Origin: Bacteroidota bacterium
GTDB taxonomy: Bacteria > Bacteroidota > Bacteroidia > Chitinophagales > Saprospiraceae
DNA: 64,000 bases
Direction: 5' to 3'
Assembly (NCBI GenBank): GCA_017858735.1
Contig: JAFMBH010000010.1
Span: 1-64,000 of the forward strand
The notes under the pieces were generated by a model that saw nothing but the letters and a program-made list of their open reading frames with translations, was not told the DNA's origin and did no database searches. Positions 2,511-46,812 of this stretch are shown here, piece after piece (position 1 is the first letter of the stretch; every line of letters begins with the position of its first letter). The position numbers were made by a program, and so were the translations under genes.

Positions 2511-5501
2511 TTAATTTTTAAGGATTTTAGTATTGAAGAAATCTAAATAGGCATTCGTATTTTTTATCCGAAGTAGTTCGCGATAATTATTAAGGCCTAT
2601 AATAAAAAGCTCGTAAGGCGTTTCACCCAGTTTTAATTCTGATTTATTCTTATCGGCGGTCAGATAATAATTTAAGGCGGATCCCTGATTATTAAAACGT
2701 CGGAGTATTAATAAAGCCTTTCTTGAAGATTCGTCTTCACCTAAAAACAGGTTGGTCATATTTAACTTTTCCAAAGAGAAGTACTTTCGGTTAAAGTCAG
2801 ATATTCCGACCTTAATGCCATTTAGATCGACTGATTGAGGGAATGCAAAAATGACATAATGAACCTGATCAGCTTCAATTTGAAATTGTCCGGATTCATC
2901 TACCCGTTGTCCTGGCATACTTGCCTGAGCCTCGCCTAAAAGTCTAAGTATTTCGGCAGCTCTTCTTTGTTCATCAGTACTGGGGTATTTAGCAATAACT
3001 TCCTGAAGAGCATAAATATATTCTTCTCTACCTTTAAGGCTTCCTGTACAGAGCGCACCCAACAAGGCAAATCTACTATTTAACTTAGTCAATGTGCCAC
3101 TTTTAGCAGGTGCCTGAACGATAAGGTCTAGCGCTTCTGCGAATTTTCTTTCTGTGAACAGTTTATAAGCAAGGTCGTAAAATTGATTTAATTCTTTTTC
3201 TCTGAGCTTTGAAGAAGCTACAAAATTAGGGTCTGAAATAGCCTGGGCGAAATAAGTGCTGCCGTATTTTTCTAATATTTTACTTTTAAAGACATCGGAT
3301 TCGGCTAACTCATTATTTTCGCGGTAGATGAGGAAGAGATAATACCAGATATTTACTTCAATATTGGTCCCTGGAAATCTTTTATCGAGTTCAATAAAAG
3401 CTTTTATTGATTCGGGATAATTGGCAAGTTTTTCCCTGTAAAGAACGCCCAATTTAAACAGAGCGTCTATAATTTTAAGTTCTGCCGCTTTTAGGGCAAT
3501 CTCTGTTTTTGGATAATCACCCAATAATCTATCAATATCTTCCTCGGTAAGATCGGTAACCTTCAATGATCTACCTTTCCTGCTGCTTGCGGTATCTATT
3601 TCAGCAATAGTCTGGGATGGTAAATCAAAAGACAATTTTTGTTCCCCCTGTCGCCAGTTATCCTGCAATGTTCTTGTTCCCCAGACCCGTTCAAATTCAC
3701 GGATACCGCGTTTGAGCGTTTGATCGTCGTAGGCGAAAAAACTACTTTGGGTAGATCCGGTATTTAAGCCACTGAAAGCATTTTCTCGGGCAGTGATAGG
3801 TAAAGCGCTAATACTTCCCTGATTTTTGTTTTCAATTTCGGCCATGCGTTTTTCATCCTCCAGTTTCTTAATTTTGAGGGCTAATTGCATACGGTCTTCC
3901 GGAGAAAGTTTGGAAATGCCAATCAGGCTATCCTGAAGATTTATATTTTCTATAAGGCTTGCAATGTCCGTCAGACTTTCCCTGAGTTTAGCTGTTTCGG
4001 GTTTTCTGGGATCCTCATCGGCCATAGTTTGCAAGGTAGTATCAAGATAATTTTTTGCTGAAAGAAACTCACTATCTTCAAAATAGAGAGATCCCAAAAT
4101 ATAGGCTGACTCTGTTTTTTGGAGTGTATTAATGGTGTTTTTTGCTAAAGATTCCTTGAAATAGGAAATAGCTTCTACGCGTTGATTATTTTTCAAGGCT
4201 AATTGACCTTTATTGTAGTATAATTGATCTAAGTAATCTATATTTTTTTCATCTTTAGCTAGTTTATCGAGATCGGCTAAGGCATCTTCGTAGGAACCTT
4301 TCCCTGCGAGCCAGGCTAATTGCGCCTTATTTATTTTAGCATTGAAAGCCATTTCGTAGTTTGAAGCCCACTTTTCAGCTTGGTCAAAGGCAGTAAAGGC
4401 CTCTGCTTCTTTTTTATCTGTTGAAAATAATTGACCAGCCAGGAAGCTAAGGCTTGCTTTTTCTTTTCGGTCATCTGACAGGCTTATGGATTTTTCCAAG
4501 GCTATATTTGCTTCGGCGATATTATTTTTTTTAAGGTAATAGAAAGCCAAAAGCGGGTACACTTCCTCGAGCACGTAATCGAAGGTAGTTTCGTCGTCGA
4601 TTAATTTTTCCAAAATACGAAGCGCAGAATCGTCATTATCACGTTCTATCAGGGTTCTGGCGAGCCACAACTTTCCTTCCTGAAAGACAGGTCTGTGTTT
4701 TAGGAAATATTTTTTAGGTTCAGCTGCTTTGGCCTCTTTTTTTGCTTCTGCGGCAGCTTGTTTTCTTTTTTCAGCCTCCTCCTTTTTAGCTTTTTCAGCT
4801 TCTGACTCATCTGTTTTTGCCTTTGGCTTAGGTTTAGAGGGCAGGGCTGCTTTACCCTCCTTTTTACGTTTAGCGTTTTGGATTTTTCTTTTTTTAACCT
4901 CCTTGTTGTATTTCTTTCTCTTTTTAAGGGCTTCTTTTTTAGCTTTTTCCCTTTTCTTTGCTTTTTGTTTAGGAGATAAAGTAGATTTTTTTGCGTCAGC
5001 TTTAGCTTTATCTTCCGATTGAGCTAATTTTTCCTCAGGATCAAATTCTGTAATTAAATAACGGAATGCTTTTTCAGCATTTTCATAATCCTCTTTTAAA
5101 AACCAGGCTTGACCGGCGAGTAAATAACAATCGTCCATCCAATAACTTCTGGGATGTAAAGCGACCACACGCGTTACTTTTTTTACAGCTTTGTCGAGTT
5201 CCTGTCCCGCCGATTTTCTATTTGACGCGGTCAGGTAAGGAAAAATAGGAAGTTGTTTTTGATAATTAACCGGATCTTGTGTAGAGAGGGCTAATTTATT
5301 AATTTCCAATATTTCATTTGCATTAAAATATCCATTATACCTTGCAGTGGTATTTTCATATATCTTGCCTAAAATAGATAGGTCAGCTTTCTTTTTCCTT
5401 GTTACACAGCTTGAAAAAGTGAGTACAAAAAGAATAAGATAAATAGGAAGAGTCAGGCTTTTCAAAACTAAAATATTTTTATTACACATAAATAAGCTCA
5501 A
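2511..5501 (-). CDS. porW: PorW/SprE-like TPR lipoprotein (type IX secretion/gliding)
   Basis: A 996-residue lipoprotein that resembles PorW/SprE, a periplasmic TPR protein needed for type IX secretion and gliding motility in Bacteroidota. The signal peptide ends in a lipobox with Cys32 (TFSSC). The following block ENTTARYNGYFNANE and the early TPR-like region LHPRSYWMDDCYLLAGQAWF are typical of the family. Residues ~157-263 form a very lysine- and alanine-rich, probably coiled-coil insert. TPR-type repeats follow to about residue 520, and the C-terminal half carries further helical repeats and a domain with FAFPQ and FNRKYFS blocks. The gene is monocistronic and divergent from an M23 peptidase gene. 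ATG5489 is an alternative start. Orthology is inferred from pattern, length and lipobox. Confidence 0.8.
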   Translation of the reverse strand: MSLFMCNKNILVLKSLTLPIYLILFVLTFSSCVTRKKKADLSILGKIYENTTARYNGYFNANEILEINKLALSTQDPVNYQKQLPIFPYLTASNRKSAGQELDKAVKKVTRVVALHPRSYWMDDCYLLAGQAWFLKEDYENAEKAFRYLITEFDPEEKLAQSEDKAKADAKKSTLSPKQKAKKREKAKKEALKKRKKYNKEVKKRKIQNAKRKKEGKAALPSKPKPKAKTDESEAEKAKKEEAEKRKQAAAEAKKEAKAAEPKKYFLKHRPVFQEGKLWLARTLIERDNDDSALRILEKLIDDETTFDYVLEEVYPLLAFYYLKKNNIAEANIALEKSISLSDDRKEKASLSFLAGQLFSTDKKEAEAFTAFDQAEKWASNYEMAFNAKINKAQLAWLAGKGSYEDALADLDKLAKDEKNIDYLDQLYYNKGQLALKNNQRVEAISYFKESLAKNTINTLQKTESAYILGSLYFEDSEFLSAKNYLDTTLQTMADEDPRKPETAKLRESLTDIASLIENINLQDSLIGISKLSPEDRMQLALKIKKLEDEKRMAEIENKNQGSISALPITARENAFSGLNTGSTQSSFFAYDDQTLKRGIREFERVWGTRTLQDNWRQGEQKLSFDLPSQTIAEIDTASSRKGRSLKVTDLTEEDIDRLLGDYPKTEIALKAAELKIIDALFKLGVLYREKLANYPESIKAFIELDKRFPGTNIEVNIWYYLFLIYRENNELAESDVFKSKILEKYGSTYFAQAISDPNFVASSKLREKELNQFYDLAYKLFTERKFAEALDLIVQAPAKSGTLTKLNSRFALLGALCTGSLKGREEYIYALQEVIAKYPSTDEQRRAAEILRLLGEAQASMPGQRVDESGQFQIEADQVHYVIFAFPQSVDLNGIKVGISDFNRKYFSLEKLNMTNLFLGEDESSRKALLILRRFNNQGSALNYYLTADKNKSELKLGETPYELFIIGLNNYRELLRIKNTNAYLDFFNTKILKN

Positions 5502-5636: not shown

Positions 5637-6551
5637 ATGGCGACAAATATTTTTAGTAAGGAAGGCTGGGCACAATTTAGAGAAAATCTAAAAAATAAAT
5701 TTCGTTTGGTCATAATGAATGAGGATACTTTTCAGGAGATTGCCTCTTTTAAACTTACTTTATTTAATTTTTATTTATTGGGTAGTAGTATTTTGGTGTT
5801 CGTCGGATTTTTAGCTCTGCTCTTTATTGCGGTGACGCCAATAAAAAGATATTTACCAGGTTATGGGCTTGGAAGTAGTAGCGAGGAGGTCTTAAGTTTA
5901 ATGCGTAAGGTAGAAGAAATTGAAAATGAAATGAGTGCGCAAAGAATTTATTTGACGAACGTAAGACGCATGTTAACAGGTGATGTTGAAACCGTCGATG
6001 ATATTCCCGTTCCGGAAAAAAACTTACTGAGTAATTTAGTTAATCTGGAGGAGCAAAATATTACTTCCCCCTCGGAGGAAGACAATCAATTAAGAAAAGA
6101 GGTGGAACTTGAAAAGATTGGTAATATGGCCAAGAGATCGCGTTATTCTGGGTTTAGTAAATCGGAGGATCTTCCCATTGAAGGGGTCTTTTTTGTGAAT
6201 CCTTTAAAAGGAGAGATTAGTTCTCAGTTTGATCTTAAAAAAAATCATATCGGTGTTGATATTGTTGCACCAAAGAATACGGCGATAAAAGCAGCTTTAT
6301 CAGGCTATGTTTTTTTAGCTGACTGGACCTTGGAGACTGGTCATACCATAGGTATTCAACATGCCAACAACTTAATAACATTTTATAAGCACAATGCCGC
6401 CCTTTTAAAAAAAGTAGGCGCTTTTGTGAAAGCTGGCGAAGCTATCGCCATTATTGGTAACACAGGCACAAAAACAGACGGACCCCATCTCCATTTTGAG
6501 TTGTGGTACAAAGGAATCGTTATGGATCCCACAGATTTTATCTCTTTCTAA
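5637..6551 (+). CDS. M23 family metallopeptidase, membrane-anchored
   Basis: A predicted LytM-type zinc endopeptidase that cuts peptidoglycan cross-bridges or stem peptides from the periplasmic side. The ATG at 5637 (MATNIFSKEGW) is preferred over the TTG at 5619, because Bacteroidota homologues begin there. The order is a ~45-residue cytoplasmic head, one membrane segment around residues 46-66, a coiled-coil-like linker (VLSLMRKVEEIENEMSAQR region) and a C-terminal M23 domain. The domain has the metal motif HIGVD (H204, D208) and HLHFE (H284, H286), so the catalytic set looks complete. The HAD phosphatase gene starts 14 bp downstream. The target could be the enzyme's own wall or a partner hydrolase. 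Confidence 0.9.
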   Translation: MATNIFSKEGWAQFRENLKNKFRLVIMNEDTFQEIASFKLTLFNFYLLGSSILVFVGFLALLFIAVTPIKRYLPGYGLGSSSEEVLSLMRKVEEIENEMSAQRIYLTNVRRMLTGDVETVDDIPVPEKNLLSNLVNLEEQNITSPSEEDNQLRKEVELEKIGNMAKRSRYSGFSKSEDLPIEGVFFVNPLKGEISSQFDLKKNHIGVDIVAPKNTAIKAALSGYVFLADWTLETGHTIGIQHANNLITFYKHNAALLKKVGAFVKAGEAIAIIGNTGTKTDGPHLHFELWYKGIVMDPTDFISF

Positions 6552-14203: not shown

Positions 14204-14289
14204 TTTTTTTTGACCTTACTTTTCTTTATTCCCTTAACCAAATATCTACGCCTTTACGCCTGATTTTTTAACCAATCAGTTTGCGTATT

Positions 14290-15378
14290 ATGGAAGATTA
14301 TATGTTGTTTGCCGTAGGGTTAACAAAAGTTCACCATGTTGGTCCAGTGCTGGGTCGACAACTTATTCATTATTGTGGAACGCCCGAGGAGGTTTTTAAT
14401 GCTTCCGCCAGGCAACTATTGAAGATTCCAGGTGTTGGGAATAATATTGTCAATGAAATTCGTTCCCGAAAAGTACTCGACATCGCGGAACAGGAATTAA
14501 AGGTTTGTGAAGAAAAAAAAATAAAAGTACACTATTTTAAGTCTCCCGATTACCCTTCCCGATTAGCTGTTTTACCGGATAGCCCCATTGTGTTATATCA
14601 ACAGGGGCATCTCGACTGGGAAGATAGGTTTATCTTGTCGGTCGTCGGCACCAGAAAACCCTCTCCTCATGGCATTGAAGCGTTGGGAAAAATTTTAGAG
14701 GGTTTAAAACCGTTTAACCCCATTATTGTCAGCGGTCTGGCATTTGGCATTGATGCGGCCGCTCATCTGTTTTGCCTTAAAAATGATCTGCGCACCGTAG
14801 GCGTTATCGCCCATGGTCTCGGAAGTGTTTATCCGGCAGATCACCGTGAACTGGCAGCTAAAATATCGAAGCAAGGCGCCATTCTTTCCGAATATCCATG
14901 GTCTGTGAGGGCTGAAAAGGAGTTCTTCCCAATGAGAAATAGAATTATCGCAGGATTAAGTGACGGTGTGTTAGTGGTTGAAACGGCTGAAAGAGGTGGT
15001 TCCATGATAACTGCCCAACTAGCTAATGATTACCACAAGGAGGTCATGGCTTTGCCTGGTAGAATATCAGATAAATGGTCATCAGGTTGTTTGAAAATGA
15101 TTAAAAATCAAGAGGCTTCTCTTGTTTCAGCTTCTCAAGACATCGTTCGGATTCTTCAATGGGAAGAGTCACAGGAAAAACAAATGATTATTCCTTTTTT
15201 GGAACCACAAGAAATATTTTTATTAGATTTATACGCTGATGCCCATCCTATTTCTTTGGAATATCTTTTTATTCATGCTCAGCTTTCTATTGGATCGTTA
15301 ACACAACTTTTGCTGAATATGGAATTTAAAGGCTTGATTAAAGAATTACCAGGAAAAAGGTATCTAAAATTAATATAA
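14290..15378 (+). CDS. dprA: DNA-processing protein DprA
   Basis: DprA loads RecA onto incoming single-stranded DNA during natural transformation. It has an N-terminal helix-hairpin-helix/SAM-like part (LLKIPGVGNNIV), then the Rossmann-like Smf domain. Its signature blocks are VVGTRKPSPHG, IVSGLAFGIDAAAH, GLGSVYPADHREL, FPMRNRIIAGLSDGVLVVE and GGSMITAQLAND. A C-terminal winged-helix segment (AQLSIGSLTQLLLNMEFKG) closes the protein. The ATG at 14290 is preferred over the TTG at 14281. The stop codon overlaps the start of the alkaline-phosphatase-like gene by one base (TAATG), so translation is likely coupled. Competence itself cannot be judged from this gene alone. Confidence 0.96.
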   Translation: MEDYMLFAVGLTKVHHVGPVLGRQLIHYCGTPEEVFNASARQLLKIPGVGNNIVNEIRSRKVLDIAEQELKVCEEKKIKVHYFKSPDYPSRLAVLPDSPIVLYQQGHLDWEDRFILSVVGTRKPSPHGIEALGKILEGLKPFNPIIVSGLAFGIDAAAHLFCLKNDLRTVGVIAHGLGSVYPADHRELAAKISKQGAILSEYPWSVRAEKEFFPMRNRIIAGLSDGVLVVETAERGGSMITAQLANDYHKEVMALPGRISDKWSSGCLKMIKNQEASLVSASQDIVRILQWEESQEKQMIIPFLEPQEIFLLDLYADAHPISLEYLFIHAQLSIGSLTQLLLNMEFKGLIKELPGKRYLKLI

Positions 15379-16481
15379 TGAGGATGAATTTTTTAAATAT
15401 CGGGTTTGTTTGTTCGGGATTATTCCTGACACCTTTTATTGGGTCGACGCAAGATTTAATGAAACAGTCGAAACCTGTAAATATCATTTTAATGCTGGCT
15501 GACGGGGTTGGGATAAACCAGATGTCCGGTAGTTTGTACCAGTACAACCATGCACTGTTAGTTGAAAAAATGCCGTTTATAGGGCTTCAGAAAACGAACT
15601 CTTTTAATAGTTTGAATTCTGATCCAGCCGCCGCAGCTACGGCCATTGCCTGCGGGGTGAAATCTTTTGACGGGGCCCTAGGGGTTAATATGGATTCAAT
15701 ATCCATTCCGTCGATAGTGAAAATTGGGGCTGATAATAATATGAAAACGGGGGTAGTTACTACGGCAAGCATGACCCACCTGTCTTCAGCCGCCTTTTGG
15801 GCTCACTCTTCTGCTTATAATAATGAGGAATACATTGCTTCCCAGTTGGCCGGCTCGCCTTTAGATCTTATTATTGGTGGTGGGAAGAAATTTTTCACAG
15901 ACAGACAGGATAAAAAAAATCTACTGGAAGACCTTCAGCGTCAAGGTTATCAGACTTTGTCTATCCTTCCAGAGGAAAAATCTTTCCCAATGGGTGATAT
16001 TACTAAGAAATATGCAGCGTTTACAGCTTTTGATTTGCCTCTTACTGTAATGGAAGGTCGAAAATATTTATCGTCCGCCGTTTCTTTTGCTATTGATTTT
16101 CTAAATACAAAAGATAAGAAAAATGATGGATTCTTTTTATTGGTGAACAGCGCCCAGATTGCTATGGGCGCAAAGCTCAATAACCCTGATTATATGCTGT
16201 CGGAGTATAACAATTTTGATGAAACGCTGGAGAAAGTACTGGATTTTGCTGAAAGGGATAAGGAAACATTGGTCATCGTTACGTCGGCATTTGAAACAGG
16301 AGGATACTCGGTAAACCCAGGATCAACGCGAGAGAAATTACAACATGAATTTACAGGAAAAACAACTACAGGTACGCTCGTACCTGTTTTTTCTCAAGGT
16401 CCGGGCGCTATAATATTCACCGGATTCTTTGAAAATATTGACTTTTTACCGAGATTAAAAGCTTTATTTGGTTGGAATTAA
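15378..16481 (+). CDS. Alkaline-phosphatase-fold protein with the active site lost (predicted pseudoenzyme)
   Basis: A 367-residue protein clearly in the PhoA-type alkaline phosphatase family. It has a hydrophobic N-terminal signal region, the block [58 protein letters not shown] and [11 protein letters not shown]. However, the nucleophile serine (S102 of E. coli PhoA, normally TDSAA) is proline here (SDPAA, P83). Metal ligands are also changed: E322 to N257, D327 to A262, H331 to K266, D369-H370 to A304-F305, and H412 to T330. Only the D51 equivalent (D42) and the Thr near T133 remain. The frame is intact, so this looks like a retained non-catalytic protein. It is probably exported. It follows dprA by a TAATG overlap and converges with lipA (18-bp overlap). 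Confidence 0.85.
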
Positions 16482-17348
16482 ATGTCTTTCTGCATGATAG
16501 GAAGAACGAACCAACGGGCCACTTTCTACATAATCGAATCCACGGCGTAAACCCTCCTCTTTATAGAAAGCAAAGGTGTCGGGATGAATAAATTCAGCGA
16601 CGTCAAGGTGCATTTTAGTGGGTTGTAAATATTGTCCTATGGTAAGCACATCGCAACCGTGAGCTACCAGGTCATCCATAGTTTTTAAAACTTCTTCTTT
16701 TGTTTCACCCAGACCGACCATTATTCCCGATTTGGTTCTTTTCCCAAAAGCTTTGGTTCGTTTAGTCTGTTCTAAACTCCGGTCATACTTAGCCTGCGGT
16801 CTCACTAATCGGTAGAGTCTTTGTACGGTTTCCATGTTATGAGAAACTATTTCCTGACCGGCACTAATCATTCTTTCTAATGCCTCCCAATTTCCTTTCA
16901 CATCAGGAATGAGGCTTTCAATGGTAGTATTTGGGCTCAGTAATTTAATCTGGTGAATGGTTTGGTACCAAACTTCTGCACCTCTGTCTGCTAGTTCGTC
17001 TCTGTTTACAGAAGTTATCACGGCATGTTTTACCTGCATTAACATGACAGCTTCTGCCACTCTTCCAGGCTCTTCAATGTCATATTCTGTTGGTTTTCCC
17101 GTTTTTACAGCACAAAAAGAGCAAGATCTGGTGCATATATTACCTAAAATCATAAAAGTGGCTGTACCTGCTCCCCAACATTCACCCATATTGGGGCAAC
17201 TTCCTGACTGGCATATAGTATGTAATTTATAGGTATCAACTAATTCCCGGACCTTCTTAAACTCGGGACCGATAGGAAGTTTAACTCGAAGCCAATCGGG
17301 CTTTTTTGAAGGTCTTTCTTTAGCACCTGCAATGGGTAATTCAACCAT
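16464..17348 (-). CDS. lipA: Lipoyl synthase
   Basis: A radical SAM enzyme that inserts two sulfur atoms into protein-bound octanoyl groups to make lipoyl cofactors for 2-oxoacid dehydrogenases and the glycine cleavage system. The 294 residues carry both iron-sulfur motifs: C46, C51 and C57 (auxiliary cluster, [12 protein letters not shown]), and C72, C76 and C79 (CTRSCSFC). Near the end the conserved serine motif VRSSYHAE is present. Other family blocks are [20 protein letters not shown] and [11 protein letters not shown]. The upstream gene on the same strand ends 24 bp past its start side, so the barrel-like gene and lipA may be read together. The 3' end overlaps the alkaline-phosphatase-like gene. 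Confidence 0.97.
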
Positions 17349-18342: not shown

Positions 18343-19626
18343 ATGTTGGACGTTTTAATATACAGTGAGCATTCGTCAAAAAGATTCCAATATGTACTGG
18401 ATTGGATTTTTAAGGGAGTTTCTTCTTTTCAAATCACTGATGATGTAGATCTCGTAAACAAATATAAAGGGCCTCTTATTGTTTACAGTAATAAGCATAT
18501 TCGACAGGATGCTTTGCAAATACCGGATAGCGAATATTTGTGGCGTCGAAAGAGCGAGCCGGTATTACCTGATTTGGCATTGGTTACCTTTCCCTTGAAT
18601 AATCTCAATGTAGATATTTTCTCTTTTATATTTTATTCATTGGCCAGATGTGAGGAGTATAATAAAAGTGATCTTGACGCATGGGGCCGATTTAAAGCGG
18701 AAAATAGTGTTGCATTCAAAAATAATTATTTGCAAATACCCTACCTGGACTTAGTTAAGGTCCGGTTGTTTGACTTTTTAAAGGAAAAATGGCCTTCTTT
18801 TATGGTTCCTTTGCCCGTTTACAAAAGACAAATTTCTTATGATATCGATGTCGCCTGGGCTTATCTTTATCGTTCTATTCCGAGGCATTTTTACGGTATT
18901 TGTCGGGATGTATTGCGTCGTGATTTTTCTTCAATCTATCATCGATGGCAGGTCCTGACGGGTAACGAAGCAGATCCGTATTTTACTTTTAGCCGCTTGT
19001 TAACTACTCATGTCGCTTTAGGTGATCAGCCCATATTTTTTTGGCTAATGGGCAATAAATCTAAAATAGATCGTGCTGTTGGACTTAAATCTAAAGCGTT
19101 TAAACAATTAATCCGGGATGTTTCAAGTAAGTACCGCATAGGCTTACATCCTTCAATGAAAAGTGGATTAGCTTTTGAATCGTTGAAAAAGGAATATAAC
19201 TTCTTGTCCTCTTTGGCTGAAAGAAAGATAATTCATTCGAGACAACATTATCTTTTGTTAAATATGCCGGATACTTACCATAATCTCATTAAAATGGGTA
19301 TTGAAAATGACTATTCCATGGGTTATGCCACTCAATGTGGATTTCGAGCGGGTACTTGTTTTCCATTTCTTTGGTTTGATGAACAGAGAGATGTCTGCAC
19401 CAGGTTAACTATTCATCCTTTTCAGGCCATGGATGTGACCTTTTGGGTCTATGGAGAAAATACATCTGAAGGCATTTTAGCTACCCTTGAAAGCATAGAG
19501 AATCAGTGTAAATCGGTGGGTGGCACCTTCACTTTCATCGCTCATAATAGTTCGTTTTCAGGTCCGGGAACCTGGAAAGAGTGGGAAGAAATTTATTTCA
19601 CCTTTTTAAAAAATACAAATATATGA
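18343..19626 (+). CDS. DUF7033/NodB-like polysaccharide deacetylase family protein
   Basis: A 427-residue protein with an N-terminal region of the DUF7033 type and a C-terminal carbohydrate-deacetylase-like (CE4/NodB) barrel. Visible barrel features are the strand SYDIDVAWAY (D167 and D169 at the usual metal/base place), IGLHPSMKS (H269) and the later GFRAGTCFPF block. CE4 enzymes remove acetyl groups from GlcNAc-containing glycans. Here a second metal His is less obvious, so activity is not certain. There is no signal peptide, so a cytoplasmic glycan or glycolipid precursor would be the target. The stop codon overlaps the upp start by 4 bp (ATGA). Confidence 0.8.
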   Translation: MLDVLIYSEHSSKRFQYVLDWIFKGVSSFQITDDVDLVNKYKGPLIVYSNKHIRQDALQIPDSEYLWRRKSEPVLPDLALVTFPLNNLNVDIFSFIFYSLARCEEYNKSDLDAWGRFKAENSVAFKNNYLQIPYLDLVKVRLFDFLKEKWPSFMVPLPVYKRQISYDIDVAWAYLYRSIPRHFYGICRDVLRRDFSSIYHRWQVLTGNEADPYFTFSRLLTTHVALGDQPIFFWLMGNKSKIDRAVGLKSKAFKQLIRDVSSKYRIGLHPSMKSGLAFESLKKEYNFLSSLAERKIIHSRQHYLLLNMPDTYHNLIKMGIENDYSMGYATQCGFRAGTCFPFLWFDEQRDVCTRLTIHPFQAMDVTFWVYGENTSEGILATLESIENQCKSVGGTFTFIAHNSSFSGPGTWKEWEEIYFTFLKNTNI

Positions 19627-46185: not shown

Positions 46186-46812
46186 ATGAACGGATTAATA
46201 GGAAAAAAAATAGGCATGACCAGTATCTATGATAGTACTGGTCGTAACATAGCTTGTACCGTTATTGAAGCGGGACCATGCATTGTTACCCAAGTTAAAT
46301 CATCTGATACAGATGGTTATAACGCTTTGCAGTTAGGTTTCGGCGAAGCTAAAGAAAAGAACACGACCAAAGCGCTCAAAGGTCACTTTGAAGCTGCAAG
46401 CACTACCCCAAAGTCTAATATTATTGAATTCAGAGATTTCAATGCAGTAAGTAAGTCTATTGGAGACGCAATTACGGTGGACGAAATTTTCAGTGAAGGA
46501 GATGCTATTAACGCCATAGGTCAATCCAGAGGTAAAGGTTTCCAGGGTGTAGTGAAAAGACATGCTTTTGCGGGTGTAAATGATGCTACTCACGGTCAGC
46601 ACAACAGACAGCGTGCCCCAGGTTCAATCGGTGCTTCTTCTTACCCATCTCGTGTATTCAAGGGAATGCGAATGGCAGGACGTGACGGTAACGACCGAAT
46701 TAAAATCAAGAATCTTCGTGTAGTTAAAATATTCGCAGATAAGAATTTAATTCTTGTGAAGGGAGCTATTCCCGGACACAATGGTTCTACTGTTATTTTG
46801 GAGAAAAAGTAA
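46186..46812 (+). CDS. rplC: Ribosomal protein L3
   Basis: An early assembly protein of the 50S subunit near the peptidyl transferase centre. The 208 residues have [14 protein letters not shown] at the start, the loop with [17 protein letters not shown], and the block [20 protein letters not shown], cut as [15 protein letters not shown], with the glutamine that is methylated in E. coli in [12 protein letters not shown]. rplD follows after 34 bp. Confidence 0.98.

Follow-up and report, generated by a model that had tools for sequence, protein, structure and literature searches.

We consider it likely that the gene at positions 15378 to 16481 of the window, the whole stretch of 64,000 nucleotides of Saprospiraceae DNA analysed here, encodes a pseudoenzyme of the PhoA alkaline phosphatase family, which redundancy has freed from catalysis and which has since been kept for a function other than catalysis, probably binding. 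Eight of its nine core active-site residues are replaced, the same replacements recur across the genus, and the gene evolves under purifying selection. The features concerned are as follows.

14281..15378, + strand: dprA (PF02481), the upstream partner, whose stop codon shares one base with the start of the pseudophosphatase gene
15378..16481, + strand: pseudo-alkaline phosphatase, TAB5-like PF00245, 367 aa (profile, homology and residue mapping)
15501..15503, + strand: codon of D42, Asp51 position, kept (alignment)
15624..15626, + strand: codon of P83, position of the nucleophile Ser102 (TAB5 and PhoA alignments)
15816..15818, + strand: codon of Y147, Arg166 position (TAB5 and PhoA alignments)
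16146..16175, + strand: codons 257-266, with N257 (Glu322), A262 (Asp327), M263 (Lys328; Trp in TAB5) and K266 (His331)
16287..16292, + strand: A304 (Asp369) and F305 (His370) codons; the six other congeners have Tyr at 305 (alignments)
16365..16367, + strand: codon of T330, His412 position (alignments)
16464..17348, - strand: radical SAM gene, lipoyl synthase-like (LIAS_N match slightly below cut-off), convergent with the pseudophosphatase gene

Results

An uninterrupted gene of the alkaline phosphatase family

The open reading frame is uninterrupted, with zero internal stops, although its exact start is uncertain because another in-frame ATG lies at 15384. The product belongs to PF00245 by homology, since its score exceeds the curated cut-off (150.5 vs 24.4 bits) and the match covers most of the domain (residues 35-314, profile positions 3-324 of 423). 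The nearest solved structure recovered by phmmer was the TAB5 alkaline phosphatase 2iuc (E 3.1e-60, query residues 30-367), and the sole PhoA match among the NCBIfam models was far under its cut-off (79 vs 540 bits). An N-terminal export signal is predicted, by eye, over residues 1 to about 24, where a hydrophobic stretch is followed by STQD; with the homology, this suggests that the protein is exported.

The 3' end of the gene is overlapped by 18 nt by the radical SAM gene, which was the neighbour in 6/6 congener loci. This convergent overlap (window 16464-16481) was observed at the same place in the congener loci L051-L055, at about 6087-6104. Further along the window, the gene for a DUF7033 protein (18343-19626; PF23019, 76 bits) adjoins a upp-like gene, an order which is kept in the congener loci. 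A possible tandem duplication of the 208-aa ORFs at 46186 and 46847 was tested and proved to be wrong.

Loss of the catalytic and metal-binding residues

Nine core residues were followed (D51, S102, R166, E322, D327, H331, D369, H370 and H412, in E. coli numbering). They were located in one alignment with TAB5 and relatives from the family and in a separate one with PhoA proteins of E. coli type from viral contigs. Both alignments are ungapped at the motifs and agree on every replacement named in the initial annotation, which had counted seven changed residues out of nine. All seven replacements were recovered, but this count was too low, as Arg166 is also replaced, by Y147, which brings the number of changed core residues to eight; the change of Thr155 to S136 had likewise been missed. 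Asp51 (D42) is the sole core residue kept, and H134 matches TAB5, in which the Asp153 position is also occupied by His.

The ligands were assigned to the Zn1, Zn2 and Mg sites according to the part of the published description covered here (PMC3145672). The Zn1 ligands Asp327, His331 and His412 are Ala, Lys and Thr, respectively, in 7/7 genomes of the genus, a single Zn2 ligand (Asp51) is left out of four (Asp51, Ser102, Asp369 and His370), and the Mg ligand Glu322 is lost, being changed to Asn. Where active PhoA-type enzymes have a Ser/Thr nucleophile, Pro is found in all seven genomes, and Arg166 is replaced by Tyr in all seven. The protein therefore combines homology to an enzyme family with the absence of its conserved catalytic residues, as pseudoenzymes do. 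Because the nucleophile and the metal ligands are lost, a two-zinc phosphatase function would not be possible, and we infer from established alkaline phosphatase chemistry that the protein should neither act as a phosphatase nor bind zinc.

AlphaFold2 models were of low quality. Seven rows gave a pLDDT of 33, too weak to inspect the pocket, and the pocket was also unreadable when six PhoA relatives from viral contigs were added (pLDDT 47.6, pTM 0.60). Foldseek searches with this second, poor model ranked TAB5 alkaline phosphatase entries first, a result that we do not count towards the mechanism. Among the PDB titles of the Foldseek matches are E. coli enzymes with a single mutation at one or another of the positions discussed above; single changes at such positions cripple the E. 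coli enzyme. Six IMG/VR 'viral' contigs (L270-L275) carry full or partial PhoA-type phosphatases; four of these six loci are located at the end of their contig and could be of host origin.

That the replacements reflect misalignment or an assembly error is hardly credible. Six of the genomes of the genus are metagenome-assembled genomes or bins, but the same residues are found in seven separate genomes, and the absence of gaps at the motifs against both TAB5 and PhoA speaks against misalignment. The initial annotation had also raised the concern that intact catalytic residues might lie elsewhere; in the alignments to the two reference sets, no catalytic residue is displaced to a neighbouring position. 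We regard it as very improbable that the alkaline phosphatase fold here supports another enzymatic chemistry, whether metal-independent or relocated. The fold is tolerant, as illustrated by the Sphingomonas alkaline phosphatase (SPAP), which departs from the canonical enzyme at the same Ser102 and Arg166 positions, being active with a Thr nucleophile and no conserved Arg, and in which a Lys may replace the third metal, and Lys is found at His331 in three lineages (see below). However, SPAP retains its two-zinc core and the corresponding ligands (PMC3145672, in the part covered here), whereas the pseudophosphatase keeps neither zinc site, its Zn1 ligands being all gone, and no replacement nucleophile or ligand cluster was recognised in the alignments.

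A conserved form under purifying selection

The protein was found in 7/7 sampled genomes of the genus (Saprospiraceae; one genome per species), without stops and 89-93% identical to that of the window. The replacements are identical in the seven genomes except for Phe/Tyr 305, Ser/Thr 136 and Met/Leu 263, and the gene order is the same in six congener loci, as far as each locus extends. The constancy of the replacements is weak evidence when taken alone because columns within the genus average 95% identity, and it partly reflects shared descent. Profile searches covered 398 family genomes and 396 order genomes, in overlapping samples; members of the genus scored at least 830 bits and other relatives at most 318 bits, and since no scores lie in between, the form described here looks confined to the genus.

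The mean pairwise Nei-Gojobori dN/dS of the pseudophosphatase gene was 0.105 over 21 pairs. When calculated in six genomes it was 0.097, inside the range of four neighbouring genes (dprA 0.079, metB/C-like 0.036, oppC-like 0.118 and the DUF7033 gene 0.130), and the intact TAB5-like paralogue described below gave a mean of 0.072 over 10 pairs. These low values, together with zero stops in 7/7 genomes, indicate purifying selection on the pseudoenzyme. Loss is targeted to the catalytic residues. A set of 109 intact relatives has 84 columns with a conservation of 95% or more; of these, 8/9 catalytic columns are changed in the genus vs 17/75 other columns, one of these 17 being an alignment-gap column (Fisher p 0.0002). 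Several of the changed non-catalytic columns adjoin catalytic ones, and 59/84 family-conserved columns are kept in all seven proteins of the genus.

In trees of 24 taxa, the mean phosphatase distance was 3.24 from the genus to the others vs 1.62 among the others, and the corresponding dprA values were 2.71 vs 1.76. The genus stem branch of the phosphatase tree measures 3.22 vs a median end branch of 0.43. The genus is fast overall and its phosphatase even faster, a pattern compatible with constraint that was relaxed along the stem and later restored. A relic whose constraint is relaxed, with decay still to come, would account for this long stem and also for the partial and near-full losses seen in other genera, which relaxation predicts. 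We nevertheless judge it improbable, given the absence of internal stops in all seven genomes, a dN/dS of about 0.10 that is comparable to that of dprA, the same neighbouring genes in six congener loci and the 59 conserved columns that are kept. A retained non-catalytic protein, which the initial annotation had preferred to neutral decay, is supported by the dN/dS of 0.097-0.105, by replacements that are conserved in 7/7 genomes, and by the phosphatase tree, in which the substituted proteins form a separate clade (seven rows, support 100).

Linkage to dprA and repeated loss of catalytic residues

One dprA locus each was identified in 145/150 sampled family genomes, and a PF00245-type gene lies on the same strand, at most 1200 nt downstream of dprA, in at least 79/145 of these loci. 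For this reason, the pseudophosphatase is the positional orthologue of an ordinary, common Saprospiraceae phosphatase. Its coupling to dprA by TAATG, pointed out in the initial annotation, is real, being found in 6/7 genomes of the genus (the seventh, G005, reads TAATAATG), but it is not special, as short spacing is common in the family. Counted from the first Met in the 58 loci with both genes and a recognisable Met, the spacing is below 60 nt in 45/58 loci, six of which come from the genus, and the -1 overlap is also present in three loci outside the genus, all from genus g15. A 3-nt gap to dprA, thought to set the genus apart, was dropped when the gaps proved to have been counted from the match start and not from Met.

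The 150 family matches listed comprise 79 dprA-linked copies and 71 that are not beside dprA, some of which may be contig-end cuts. Degraded copies among the matches listed amount to 9/79 linked vs 0/71 unlinked (p 0.003), or to 6/76 vs 0/71 in a stricter count in which the genus is taken once and G014 is dropped (p 0.029). The number of changed core residues is eight in each of three genus copies and in G024, six in G072, four in G051, three in G063 and two in both G131 and G014. Catalytic loss is seen in five further genera among the 79 linked copies, with intact relatives between them. One more dprA-linked copy, found in G204 by the family profile search, has 7/9 core residues changed. The single order-level copy inspected outside the family (L108) is intact.

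The G014 copy (L125/L241) was set aside because it probably contains a frameshift close to the C-terminus; the C-terminal part of this phosphatase loses its register around the last two metal motifs, in a fragmented assembly. L249 and L251 are short pieces, both overlapping one partial ORF, and were not counted among the degraded copies.

Within one genus, the linked phosphatase is intact in G026 (L262/L124), has two core residues changed in G131 (L263/L031) and seven in G204 (L261/L240). The dN/dS of these linked copies is 0.10-0.17, a rough estimate since dS is above 1.3. An ORF of about 300 aa located 3' of the degraded G204 phosphatase (L240, about 3217-4120) consists of a long Asp/Glu/Tyr repeat followed by a Lys/Arg-rich part.

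A loss tree was built from nine degraded and 34 chosen intact rows after removal of twelve active-site columns. It requires six state changes (bootstrap 5-7), only three of which are forced by well-supported branches. A single origin was rejected, the AU test giving p 0.00012 for one clade of the nine degraded rows, a group defined by residue state, though after an earlier tree had been seen, and under a model that is weak on long branches. Glu322 has become Asn in 3/3 lineages in which it is changed, His331 has become Lys in 3/6 and Ser102 has become Pro in 2/3. We took the weak grouping of G024 with the genus in the first tree for long-branch attraction, since the linked copies of its own congeners are the nearest sequences to the G024 copy (49-50% identity, vs 43-45% to paralogues); the tree without active-site columns still places G024 beside the genus. 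An intact linked copy from G056 is up to 69% identical to other intact linked copies, vs 44% to the pseudophosphatase of the window, 46% to the G024 copy and 47% to the G072 copy. Taken together, these sequence comparisons indicate that catalysis at the linked copy was probably lost several times independently in Saprospiraceae. As this repeated loss is confined, among the matches listed, to one genomic position, it points to a role other than catalysis for the copy beside dprA.

Intact paralogues in the same genomes

The genome from which the window derives also encodes two phosphatases with all nine core residues intact. At least one intact alkaline phosphatase paralogue is present in each of the seven genomes of the genus, and intact paralogues were also found in G024, G051, G063, G072, G131 and G204. 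Such proteins are potential partners, and by analogy with FAM20A, the dead partner of FAM20C (PMC10211241, in the part covered here), the dead subunit might pair with the intact enzyme of the cell and tune its stability, location or activity. Alkaline phosphatase structures are described as dimeric in the portion of PMC3145672 covered here, and the intact enzyme co-occurs with the pseudophosphatase throughout the genus and with the degraded copies of these six other genomes. However, the TAB5-like paralogue is only 36% identical to the pseudophosphatase and is present in 5/7 genomes of the genus, so that pairing looks non-obligatory, and we rate a dimer partner as unlikely.

Discussion

Our preferred reading, a pseudoenzyme retained for a non-catalytic role, can be laid out as a sequence of events. 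In Saprospiraceae, the gene for a predicted exported TAB5-like alkaline phosphatase is commonly located directly downstream of dprA. Further intact phosphatases would have made catalysis at this copy dispensable, and it would have been lost several times. In the genus, the loss has gone near to completion, leaving a protein devoid of nucleophile, Zn1 ligands and Arg clamp, with one of four Zn2 ligands and with Asn in place of one Mg ligand, the rest of the fold being kept under purifying selection. The remodelled, metal-free former active site may then bind a ligand or a protein, Lys266 lying perhaps at the place of Zn1. We propose only tentatively, at somewhat less than even chances, that binding occurs through this site, as against a dimer-partner or purely structural role. 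Simple binding of phosphate is made less likely by the absence of Arg166.

It is also conceivable, if rather doubtful, that the linked phosphatase has a non-catalytic second function that is older than the losses and that would allow the protein to persist each time its catalytic centre is given up. In that case the convergence of several lineages on Lys at His331 and Asn at Glu322 might denote a metal-free binding pocket whose new specificity they share, perhaps in connection with the role of dprA in DNA uptake. No study of the dprA-phosphatase pair was found in the open-licence literature. In the part covered here, a transposon study in Riemerella reports that transformation was lost or decreased in a set of mutants, one of which is affected in an 'alkaline phosphatase family protein', without a link to the pseudophosphatase (PMC8459023).

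The pseudophosphatase resembles TAB5 alkaline phosphatase (2iuc) and TAB5-like PF00245 proteins in its full-length homology, size class and structural motifs, and it has kept both Asp51 and the Asp153-position His. It differs from TAB5 in that the nucleophile, Arg166, all Zn1 ligands and 3/4 Zn2 ligands are changed. Among other pseudophosphatases, STYX and MTMR13 belong to eukaryotic folds of protein or lipid phosphatases, which have no relationship to the alkaline phosphatase superfamily. Like the protein described here, they keep a phosphatase fold without catalytic residues and have been retained in evolution; unlike it, they have known partners (PMC10211241, in the part covered here). No described PF00245 pseudoenzyme was found in the open-licence literature, which covers few subscription papers, and the term 'alkaline phosphatase' occurs nowhere in the main text of a pseudoenzyme review, which is the part covered here (PMC10211241). 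Pseudoenzymes as such are already known as a class.

In metagenomes, gene counts of alkaline phosphatase, a textbook enzyme, are taken as a sign of phosphate scavenging. Dead copies such as the pseudophosphatase would be miscounted in these tallies. The possible natural series from G026 through G131 to G204, together with the nearly fully dead form fixed in another genus, would offer a testable order of active-site loss, and the same series would allow a direct test of the remaining function of the fold.
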